From Thioalkalivibrio sp. ALJ24 (GTDB lineage: Bacteria; Pseudomonadota; Gammaproteobacteria; Ectothiorhodospirales; Ectothiorhodospiraceae): DNA of 64,000 bases. A program made the translations under genes and the position numbers. How positions within the stretch are numbered: position 1 is the stretch's first letter; every line of letters starts with the position of its first letter. The notes under the pieces were generated by a model. That model did not search any database, was not told where the DNA came from, and saw nothing but the letters and a program-made list of their open reading frames with translations. Of the stretch, positions 32,325 to 35,705 are shown piece after piece. The stretch is taken from positions 1 to 64,000 of the forward strand of contig NZ_KB898728.1 of assembly GCF_000377785.1 (NCBI RefSeq). The letters run 5' to 3'.

Positions 32325-33491
32325 TCAGGCCGTGCGCGCCACTTCCCGACGGACGCAGTTGCGGCCATCGGCCTTGGCCTCGTACATCGCTAGGTCCGCG
32401 CGGGCCAGCGCGGCATCAATGGACTCCTCGGGCATCCAGCAAGCCACACCAACGCTGGCAGTCATGCGCACCACCCGGTCGCCACTGCGAATGCACAGCG
32501 CCTCGACCTCGGCCCGCAAGGCATGGGCACGCCTTTCTGCCCGTTCCAGCGGCAACCCCGGTAGCAGCACCGCAAATTCTTCCCCTCCCAGCCGGGCCAG
32601 GGTTTCGCCGGGCTTGAGGGCGTCTCCGAGCACCCGAGCGACACGCCGCAGTACCTCGTCGCCCACGGCATGGCCGTACTGATCGTTCACGCGCTTGAAG
32701 AAATCCAGGTCCAGCAGCACCACCGACAGGGGTTCGTCCGCCAACCGGCTCCGATGCCTTGCCGCCTCGGCCGCGTCGAAGAAGCCACGGCGGTTGCTGA
32801 CGCCGGTCAGGGGATCGGCGGTGGACATGCGCATCAGGCGATCGATCGCCGTGAACTGCCAGCGCCGCAGGACATCCTCGCGATGGGCAATCGCCAGCAG
32901 GGCCAGCAGCACACCGGAGACGAACAGCCCCGCCAGTTCGGCTTCGGCCCCGGTGCCCGCATCGGTCTTGCCGTATGCCACCACCCAGACAGCGAGCAGC
33001 AGGATCCCGGTCAACGCCCACCGCCATCGACCCGTATTGGGCAGCAACAGCACGAACACCAGGCCGATGAAAGCAAACTGGCTGATGTCCAGCACCGGGT
33101 TGGCGTGTTCCAGCCCGTAGACGAAGGTCAGCGCCACCGTGAGGATCGTGACCCCGACCCCGGTACCGGGCGCCACGTTCATCAGCCGCTCCGGCCGCCG
33201 CCAGACCATCACCGCTGCGGTCACCAGCAGCCCGGCAAACACCGCCCGCAACGCCAGTGCAGCCCCCAGCCCTTCGTCCTCGAGGCGGGTCAGGTCCAGG
33301 GGCACCAGCGCCGCCAGCATGACGAGGATCAACGCCAGAACCACCAGGAAGGTCCGACGCATCGCACGCGAGCGTTCACTGCGAAAGCGCGCTTCCAGTT
33401 CCTCATCCGCAAAGCCGCCCGTCCAGCGCGACGGCCGCGGCAACGACACGGGAAGACTGCCATGCAGCGTGTGGCGCGGGTGGTCCGTCAC
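32325..33491 (-). CDS. Membrane-bound GGDEF diguanylate cyclase
   Basis: 388 residues from GTG 33491, chosen for the GGGGGAG site just upstream; an internal ATG near residue 44 is possible. A 44-residue cytoplasmic lead is followed by six membrane segments (about 47-66, 79-97, 112-127, 137-151, 158-173, 186-203) and then the GGDEF domain (about 222-385, starting STADPLTGVSNRRGF). The active-site GGEEF is at 302-306, so it should be catalytically competent. The RxxD I-site is absent: the matching position reads PGET. Product inhibition through that site is therefore not expected, in contrast to the PAS-GGDEF enzyme at 9345. The membrane sensor belongs to no MASE class I can name. Confidence 0.93.
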   Translation of the reverse strand: MTDHPRHTLHGSLPVSLPRPSRWTGGFADEELEARFRSERSRAMRRTFLVVLALILVMLAALVPLDLTRLEDEGLGAALALRAVFAGLLVTAAVMVWRRPERLMNVAPGTGVGVTILTVALTFVYGLEHANPVLDISQFAFIGLVFVLLLPNTGRWRWALTGILLLAVWVVAYGKTDAGTGAEAELAGLFVSGVLLALLAIAHREDVLRRWQFTAIDRLMRMSTADPLTGVSNRRGFFDAAEAARHRSRLADEPLSVVLLDLDFFKRVNDQYGHAVGDEVLRRVARVLGDALKPGETLARLGGEEFAVLLPGLPLERAERRAHALRAEVEALCIRSGDRVVRMTASVGVACWMPEESIDAALARADLAMYEAKADGRNCVRREVARTA

Positions 33492-33586
33492 CGGCTCCCC
33501 CTGTAAACGGATATCGAACGGGCGAGGATCCCACGCCTGCGGCTTGCGCGCCAGAGGGACACGACGGTGTGTGACGCACGGATACC

Positions 33587-34822
33587 TCAGGCGCGTGCGG
33601 CCTCGCGGGGGAGCAGGGCAGAAATCATCCAGGCGGCCAGAATGAACAGAGTGGAAGCAATGAGCGCGCCTTCGAGGCCCCAGATCATGAAGATGGCCCC
33701 GGAGGCGACGGTGCCGACCAGACGCCCACCGGCATTGGCCATGTAGTAGAAGCCGACCTTCATCGCGACCCGATCGGCCTCGGCGTAGTCGAGGATCAGG
33801 AACGAGTGCACGGCGGAGTTGATGGCGAACACCACACCGAACACGCCCAGCCCGACCATCAGCACCCACGCCGGGTCCGGGCCGGCCTCCAGGCCGATCA
33901 CGATGGCGAGCGGCAGCAGCATCAGAACGAACGCCCACAGGCGCGCGGTCAGCCCGGTTGGATGCAGCCCGCCGCGCCCCAGCAGGTACGGCACCGAGGC
34001 CTGCACGATGCCATAGCCGATCACCCACAGCGCCAGAAACGCCCCTACCTGCATGTGGTTCCAGTCCAGAGTCGCGCTCAGGAACACCGGCAACGCGACC
34101 ACGAACCAGACATCACGCGCCCCAAACAGAAAAAAGCGCGCGGCCGAGAGGACGTTGATCGCGCTGGAGTTGGAGAACATCCGGGTGAACTTCGGCTTGC
34201 CGCCGACCTTGCCAAGGCCACGCGGCAGCCCGACCACCGAGAACAGCATCACCACGGCGAGCATCCCGGCGAGGATCACCAGCGCCAGCTGGAACCCGAC
34301 CGAGTACAGCAGCGCACCACCGACGAAGAATCCGACCCCCTTCAGCGCGTTCTTGGAGCCGGTGAGCAGCGCGACCCAGCGAAACAAACGCCCTTCGCCG
34401 TCGCCGGCGACCAGCTTCACGCCGGATTTCGCACTCATCTTGTTCAGGTCCTTGGCGATCCCCGACAGGGCCTGCGCGAACATCACGTAGGCCACGCCCA
34501 GCCACGCCTCCGGCACCGTGAGCATCAGCAGCGCGGCGACCTGCAACAGCGTCCCGCCGATCATCGTGGTGTTCACCCCCAGCCGCGCGGCCAGCCAGCC
34601 ACCGGTGAGGTTGGTAATCACTCCGAACAGTTCGTAGAACAGGAACAGGAAGGCGATCTCCAGCGGGCTGTAACCCAGCTGGTGGAAGAACAGCACGACC
34701 AGCATGCGGATCGCGCCGTCGGTGATGGTGAACGCCCAGTAGTTCGCGGTGATGCGCGCGTAGGCGCCCACGCCGAGTACCGGCGAAGCGTCAGGATCGG
34801 GACCCGGGAAACACTGATTCAT
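33587..34822 (-). CDS. arsJ: ArsJ-like MFS transporter (organoarsenical efflux family)
   Basis: 411 residues, about 12 membrane segments. Strong ArsJ family blocks are ANYWAFTITDGAIRMLVVLF, YELFGVITNLTGGWLAARLG, ALSGIAKDLNKMSAKSGVKL and VALLTGSKNALKGVGFFVGG. ArsJ exports 1-arseno-3-phosphoglycerate made by a GAPDH partner, giving arsenate resistance. That partner gene, normally adjacent, and any arsR are missing here. Start ATG 34822 gives a normal family length; a longer start at 34861 lies inside the palindrome. The first 24 residues (MNQCFPG...) are not typical of the family and are part of a repeated sequence. Downstream is the GGDEF gene. Confidence 0.85.
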   Translation of the reverse strand: MNQCFPGPDPDASPVLGVGAYARITANYWAFTITDGAIRMLVVLFFHQLGYSPLEIAFLFLFYELFGVITNLTGGWLAARLGVNTTMIGGTLLQVAALLMLTVPEAWLGVAYVMFAQALSGIAKDLNKMSAKSGVKLVAGDGEGRLFRWVALLTGSKNALKGVGFFVGGALLYSVGFQLALVILAGMLAVVMLFSVVGLPRGLGKVGGKPKFTRMFSNSSAINVLSAARFFLFGARDVWFVVALPVFLSATLDWNHMQVGAFLALWVIGYGIVQASVPYLLGRGGLHPTGLTARLWAFVLMLLPLAIVIGLEAGPDPAWVLMVGLGVFGVVFAINSAVHSFLILDYAEADRVAMKVGFYYMANAGGRLVGTVASGAIFMIWGLEGALIASTLFILAAWMISALLPREAARA

Positions 34823-35076
34823 GCACACGCTCGCGCTCGAGTCGCTTTTGCGTGCGAACAAGGCGCGGGGACCGCCGTGCAGTCATTCTGCACAAGGGAG
34901 CCGCAACGCCGTGCGCGCACAAAACCGGCCGAGCCCCTTCGGCGTTGGCACCCCGGGTTCCCCGATCCTGCGTTGCGGCCCTTGCCGGTAGAACCACTAC
35001 CCGCTGCGCAGCGCGCCTTGTCTGCGAAAACCCGGGGTGCCAACGCGAGCGTGTACATGAATCAGTATTTCCCTGG
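34803..35076. repeat. Long imperfect palindrome at the arsJ 5' end
   Basis: The outer arms 34803-34835 and 35044-35076 are inverted copies (33 bp, about 4 mismatches). They cover the arsJ start region, so the right arm reads ATGAATCAGTATTTCCC on the plus strand. Inner matching pieces (AAGGGAGCCGCAACGC near 34896 against GCGTTGCGGCCCTTG near 34971) and a central hairpin GCCGA/TCGGC share the same centre, about 34939. A second, offset inverted repeat of 18 perfect bp (34942-34959 and 35029-35046, GCGTTGGCACCCCGGGTT) lies in the right half. The interval 34823-35180 otherwise holds no gene that I can support. Confidence 0.75.
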
Positions 35077-35180: not shown

Positions 35181-35705
35181 TCAGAAATCGCCGGTTTTTC
35201 CGGCCTCGACGATGCTGTAGATCGTGTCCCTCACCTCGCGGGCGGTTTCTTCCAGATCCTCGGGCAGGTCCGTGGCATGCAGCATCATGTCCATGTTGGT
35301 GGTCACGATCCAGCCCTGGCCCTCGTCATCCTCCACCACTGCGATACGACACGGCAGGAAGCTGGCGAAGATGATGTCGTGCTGCACCATTTCGTTGGCG
35401 ATCAGGGCATCACAGAACGCGAGGATGCGCATGTAGTTGCCCTCGCCGCCCATGGCCGTCACCTGTTCGGACAGTGGCAGATCCGCCACTTCCTGGAAGT
35501 TGCGCATGTTGGCCCGCAACTGCATCATCTCGACGGCTTCCTCGACGCTCACACCGTCCTCGATCCGAAAAACCTCGGCACTGTCCTGAACCAGCTGCTG
35601 AAGCGTTTCACGATCGAGTTCCGGTTCCTGCGCGTCGTCCGGCGCCGAGGCCATCAGGACCGGAGCCCAGCCCAGCAGCAGCACAAACAGAATCCAGCGT
35701 TGCAT
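35181..35705 (-). CDS. Exported DUF302-domain protein
   Basis: 174 residues. A cleavable signal peptide (WILFVLLLGWAPVLMASA, cut near residue 20) puts it in the periplasm. The mature part carries the DUF302 fold: MRNFQEVADLPLSEQV, YMRILAFCDALIANEMVQHD, FLPCRIAVVEDDEGQGWIVTTNMDMML. The motif around PCRIAVVED matches DUF302, a family often found with sulfur-oxidation or cytochrome proteins but of unknown activity. There are two Cys residues (FCDAL and LPCRI). It stands alone between the palindrome near arsJ and the leuA terminator. Confidence 0.85.
   Translation of the reverse strand: MQRWILFVLLLGWAPVLMASAPDDAQEPELDRETLQQLVQDSAEVFRIEDGVSVEEAVEMMQLRANMRNFQEVADLPLSEQVTAMGGEGNYMRILAFCDALIANEMVQHDIIFASFLPCRIAVVEDDEGQGWIVTTNMDMMLHATDLPEDLEETAREVRDTIYSIVEAGKTGDF

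Follow-up and report, generated by a model that had tools for sequence, protein, structure and literature searches.

A long palindrome at the arsJ start of Thioalkalivibrio is very probably one copy of an IS5-type MITE family

In Thioalkalivibrio sp. ALJ24, a window of 64,000 nucleotides (the whole stretch of DNA that was analysed) contains a long imperfect palindrome at the start of arsJ, where ATGAATCAG is read outward from both palindrome ends and gives MNQCFPG in the direction of arsJ and MNQYFPGG the other way. What is this palindrome, and how did the start of a resistance gene come to lie in it? The sequence-only reading of this DNA had described an inverted copy of the arsJ start and had offered an inverted-duplication scar, a family of mobile repeats or a regulatory cruciform as explanations. 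The features of the locus, with the palindrome interpreted as a MITE for the reasons given below, are as follows.

33587..34822, minus strand: arsJ (MFS organoarsenical efflux permease), taken from the ATG inside the element; NCBIfam NF033734, E = 1.5e-170, and comparison with relatives
34803..34806, no strand: left target-site 4-mer CCCG (the G001 ortholog has CCAG), interpreted as a degenerate target copy of the CTAG type
34806-35073: extent of the MITE including the outer G/C (268 bp)
34807..35072, no strand: MITE body (GGAAAC...ATTTCC), 4-bp target copies excluded; based on five copies in its own genome with unrelated flanks, about 120 copies in the genus and an empty site at another own-genome copy
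34807..34835, plus strand: left terminal inverted repeat, whose minus strand gives ATGAATCAGTGTTTCC, the likely arsJ start
~34931..34945, no strand: internal module B, a small central hairpin between modules A and C, in its short form in the arsJ copy
34942..34959, plus strand: 5' side of the inner 18-bp repeat, stem of the right-hand hairpin arm, a feature of the family
35029..35046, plus strand: 3' side of the inner 18-bp repeat
35044..35072, minus strand: right terminal inverted repeat
35073..35076, no strand: right target-site 4-mer CTGG, degenerate and different from the left one
35181..35705, minus strand: DUF302 gene beyond the element, not beside arsJ in relatives; Pfam DUF302, E = 8.7e-13, and synteny

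Direct comparison of the 33-nt arms (34803-34835 and 35044-35076) revealed 91% complementarity with 3 mismatches, so that the arms are as first described and only the mismatch count, given as about 4, needs correction. The perfect 18-bp inner inverted repeat, with a centre that differs from that of the 33-nt arms, was found just as the sequence-only reading had it. When compared to dinucleotide shuffles, the palindrome stretch folds far more stably than expected, both as RNA (z = -7.6) and as DNA (z = -8.5), and in the predicted shape the arms form a long basal stem with side hairpins, the 18-bp repeat being the stem of the right-hand hairpin. A second species, G001, has the same element at the corresponding arsJ position, with 94% identity over 301 bp including flanks, which excludes an assembly artefact.

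Five full copies of the element were found in the source genome, four of which lie in unrelated flanks elsewhere and share 85-92% identity with the arsJ copy. Of 30 Thioalkalivibrio genomes, 16 carry the element. In 15 of these, about 30-50 matches per genome were counted, a figure in which whole, partial and opposite-strand matches are pooled, whereas all 17 genomes searched from the family's other genera lack it. When named genomes were scanned with the end pattern, at least 117 stretches were returned and, among the matches listed, 80 of 80 belonged to Thioalkalivibrio. A plasmid collection contained no match to the element, and no viral contig matched the end pattern exactly. Among the genomes searched, the family is confined to one group of Thioalkalivibrio, which are sulfur bacteria of soda lakes. 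With hundreds of matches in the genus, besides the full copies at home and the ortholog in G001, the search for further copies that had been proposed turned up a multicopy family, and the repeat is neither unique nor an artefact.

Transposition is documented most directly at another copy in the source genome, the C4 copy, which reads GGTTCCTAG-[element]-CTAGGCTCC where G001 shows the uninterrupted sequence GGTTCCTAGGCTCC with a single CTAG. Therefore, the element inserted at C4 and duplicated the 4 bp CTAG. Across 114 distinct insertions, the left and right flanking 4-mers were identical in 37 cases, compared to 19 expected when partners are shuffled, and CTAG was the commonest flanking 4-mer on the left (46/114) as well as on the right (45/114). 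In copies with A in place of G as the outermost base, TTAA can be the 4-mer at either flank (L055, for example). This suggests that the outer base is part of the target copy and that GGAAAC is where the element itself starts. At the arsJ copy itself identical target 4-mers are absent, the flanks being CCCG/CTGG here and CCAG/CTGG in G001.

At C4 the duplicated CTAG (L003 1498-1501 and 1767-1770) supplies the TAG stops of both convergent neighbours and, because of this, both neighbouring reading frames are intact. A preference for TAG stops as targets was considered and found to be weak, since open frames of at least 100 codons stop at 37 of the 93 CTAG ends and already at 29% of ordinary CTAG sites.

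The element is short (about 268 bp), has no transposase of its own and shows no selection on any frame; it possesses terminal inverted repeats, which are the 33-nt arms in the arsJ copy and occur family-wide; it is dispersed in multiple copies; and its target-site duplication is evident from the empty site and from the 4-mer statistics, though degenerate at the arsJ copy. Also, its ends match those of an IS5-family insertion sequence. The option of a family of mobile repeats has thus turned out to be the right one, given the multiple copies in genome and genus and the empty site with target duplication. Taken together, we consider it very probable (about 0.9) that the palindrome is a non-autonomous MITE copy with a candidate IS5-family mobiliser and that it likely lent arsJ its start.

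The other explanations fare poorly against the same data. If a local replication error had copied the arsJ start in inverted orientation, ATGAATCAG would stand at both ends in opposite orientation, as it does; however, the same 33-bp ends together with the whole interior recur at dozens of unrelated loci per genome, and other copies (e.g., L036, L041) carry the ATGAATCAG variant in unrelated flanks, so that a multicopy family disposes of the inverted-duplication scar, to which we assign next to no probability. Control of arsJ by a regulatory RNA or cruciform is very unlikely as well. Points in its favour are a very stable predicted fold on both strands and stem positions that covary across copies, but other copies in the source genome have unrelated flanks and the sense fold is the more stable one in 52 of 124 copies (p = 0.3); with no difference in fold energy between the sense and antisense strands, neither is preferred as RNA. 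Rfam returned nothing at gathering score and two chance-level matches nearby, and a search of the region for sigma-70-like promoters returned none, with one chance-level terminator-like site. Thus, the element has neither an Rfam match nor the strand-specific fold stability of a structured RNA, and beyond its foldability nothing speaks for the cruciform. A hidden small peptide would be encoded by an 84-aa frame starting from the ATG in the right terminal repeat, with size steps of 14-15 bp, and an antisense open frame of at least 75 codons is present in 97 of 116 copies. In contrast, the nonsynonymous/synonymous ratio amounts to about 1.0-1.1 in all six frames (1.05 for the 84-aa frame), 1-bp indels are common across copies, and open frames would be frequent in such G+C-rich DNA anyway; with the substitution analysis indicating no coding constraint, the peptide was rejected as extremely improbable.

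Which enzyme might move the MITE? An insertion sequence of 1202 bp from Thioalkalivibrio (L063/L064) encodes a 321-aa transposase with the Pfam domains DDE_Tnp_1 and DUF772, which is assigned to the IS5 family by NCBIfam NF033581 (E = 2e-95, above cut-off). Its ends are GGAAACGCTGATCAATG and GGAAACACTGATTTATT, flanked by CTAG on both sides. The outer 17 bp or so are common to MITE and IS ends, and beyond position 17 the ends differ. Of 30 Thioalkalivibrio genomes, 6 yielded the IS, among them the source genome, where the 321-aa frame is open, and 16 the MITE. Because of the shared outer sequence and the same CTAG/TTAA target, the IS is the best candidate and the likely mobiliser in trans, as judged from sequence. 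Mobilisation by a different transposase, either lost or present in unrecognised form, seems unlikely to us: at least 10 genomes with the MITE have no detected IS and the similarity of the ends is limited to about 17 bp, as such a case would predict, but the MITE and the IS have the same outer sequence and the same 4-bp target type, and IS5-type MITEs with a CTAG/TTAA-type target have been documented (PMC3189936).

The source genome contains a second IS5-family copy (L030 347-1517, G000:C10) in which an internal stretch of the transposase is missing and which is flanked by CTAG and TTAA; due to the internal gap and the unlike flanking 4-mers, this copy may be decayed or recombined. Also, a second group of short elements (L063 1-327, L065 and L159, from Thioalkalivibrio relatives) was noticed, where the outer end GGAAACGCTGATTNAA seems to be shared and the inner end TCGAGCGCGGACGCGCGAYTCAATCAGCGTTTCC differs. 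This group probably represents a further MITE family that is moved by the same transposase.

About 120 distinct full copies of the MITE fall into size classes near 268, 283, 298 and 313 bp. The size steps correspond to three internal modules with short and long forms of 17/32, 6/20 and 9/24 bp, respectively, and all eight combinations of short and long forms occur, which points to recombination between copies or to repeated switching. Both ends of one copy tend toward the same substitutions, and on a tree built from the interiors identical changes in both arms were placed on the same branch 66 times, compared to about 6.5 expected by chance placement. Such matching can be read in two ways, as template-switch correction between the arms or as exchange of interiors between lineages with different ends. 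Template switching is a known process at quasi-palindromes (PMC7202029, PMC8604942). The matching of the arms is probably maintained by template-switch correction between the inverted repeats, by subfamily bursts or by both. A requirement for matched ends would be less likely, given that the two ends of the IS do not match each other. We remain doubtful of a more far-reaching proposal, namely that the ends co-evolve actively while modules are swapped and that the folded palindrome is kept, either through repeated template-switch correction or through a fit to transposases that change, so that structure would be maintained and not only sequence.

Returning to arsJ, codons one to seven (MNQCFPG) fall within the MITE end plus the 4-bp target copy, and native sequence resumes with PDPDASPVLG. 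Where relatives begin with, for example, MSSVSGQPDPGSPPTLGL or similar, the N-terminus here reads MNQCFPG followed by PDPDASPVLGV, and this comparison of 5' ends supports the earlier suggestion that the palindrome changed the arsJ N-terminus. A fresh CTAG duplication would place an in-frame TAG after MNQCFP, and both carrier species differ from it at this place (CCCG or CCAG). Because the target copy is degenerate, the outward frame is open and arsJ most likely starts at the ATG of the element. A downstream GTG start is possible as well, since similarity to the ArsJ model sets in only with the GAYAR stretch. From the sequence comparison, the element end likely supplies ATG AAT CAG as the new arsJ start, short of proof. 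The supposed inverted copy of the arsJ start therefore has its direction reversed: ATGAATCAG is the terminal inverted repeat of the element itself and arsJ appears to be the borrower.

The gene order in several close relatives is leuC-LysR-arsJ-gapdh, whereas it is leuC-LysR-GGDEF-arsJ-MITE-DUF302-leuA here and in G001, and therefore the element sits at a synteny breakpoint. The gene for the GGDEF-domain protein (window 32325-34028, minus strand) stands between LysR and arsJ in these two species, and LysR adjoins arsJ in several relatives. In arsenate efflux, GAPDH is known to work jointly with ArsJ (PMC5930303). Neither the source genome nor G001 has the ars-type gapdh, and the sole GAPDH left in them is 44-45% identical. 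The ars-type gene is missing from G008 and G028 too, which have no MITE beside arsJ, so that the loss does not have to be tied to the element. In the most likely course of events, the element inserted beside arsJ, or arrived by recombination between two copies, in the ancestor of the source strain and G001, and the locus also lost the ars-type gapdh and became joined to the DUF302-leuA segment. The long-stemmed shape of the element is a family trait and not a regulator of arsJ.

A literature search found no paper naming this Thioalkalivibrio MITE family. The nearest described case is MITEPsy1, a 100-bp element of Pseudomonas syringae that is possibly IS5-derived, has a CTAG or YTAA target with a 4-nt duplication and is mobile in vivo (PMC3189936); use of the transposase of ISPsy2, an IS5-family element, in trans was proposed for it (PMC3189936). 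The likeness is one of kind, drawn from the published description: both are non-autonomous, with one end beginning GGAA, a duplicated 4-nt CTAG/YTAA target and a proposed IS5-family partner. In contrast to MITEPsy1, the Thioalkalivibrio element has about 266-314 bp, 33-bp ends, a branched palindromic interior and switchable modules. The IS5-family IS (L063/L064), which has the outer ~17 bp and the CTAG target in common with the MITE, differs by its 321-aa transposase. Like the Thioalkalivibrio MITE, elements of the ERIC and Correia types are short imperfect palindromes that occur in many copies and vary in internal length, but they differ in sequence and host. GTAG-tagged REP repeats of 20-40 bp have been reported for Thioalkalivibrio K90mix (PMC3733652). 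They are palindromic and from the same genus but constitute a different repeat class; identity with GTAG-type REPs or REPINs was rejected for our element, with its unit of about 268 bp, GGAAAC ends and CTAG duplications. Separately, near-perfect inverted repeats of 28-35 nt with TGTAGGAGGCCAGCCCTCTGGCCGAT (L247 1028-1099 and 3244-3312; L249 3156-3238) look like the GTAG-type REPs of Thioalkalivibrio (PMC3733652).

The Thioalkalivibrio element is an IS5-type MITE and as such of a familiar kind; its concerted ends and switchable modules are less ordinary. With it, an abundant MITE family of Thioalkalivibrio has been identified, together with a probable IS5-family partner. The arsJ locus provides a concrete example of a transposon end that likely gave a metal-resistance gene its start codon and that marks a break in synteny, and the hundreds of copies, empty sites included, make a good natural data set on how the arms of mobile palindromes stay matched.
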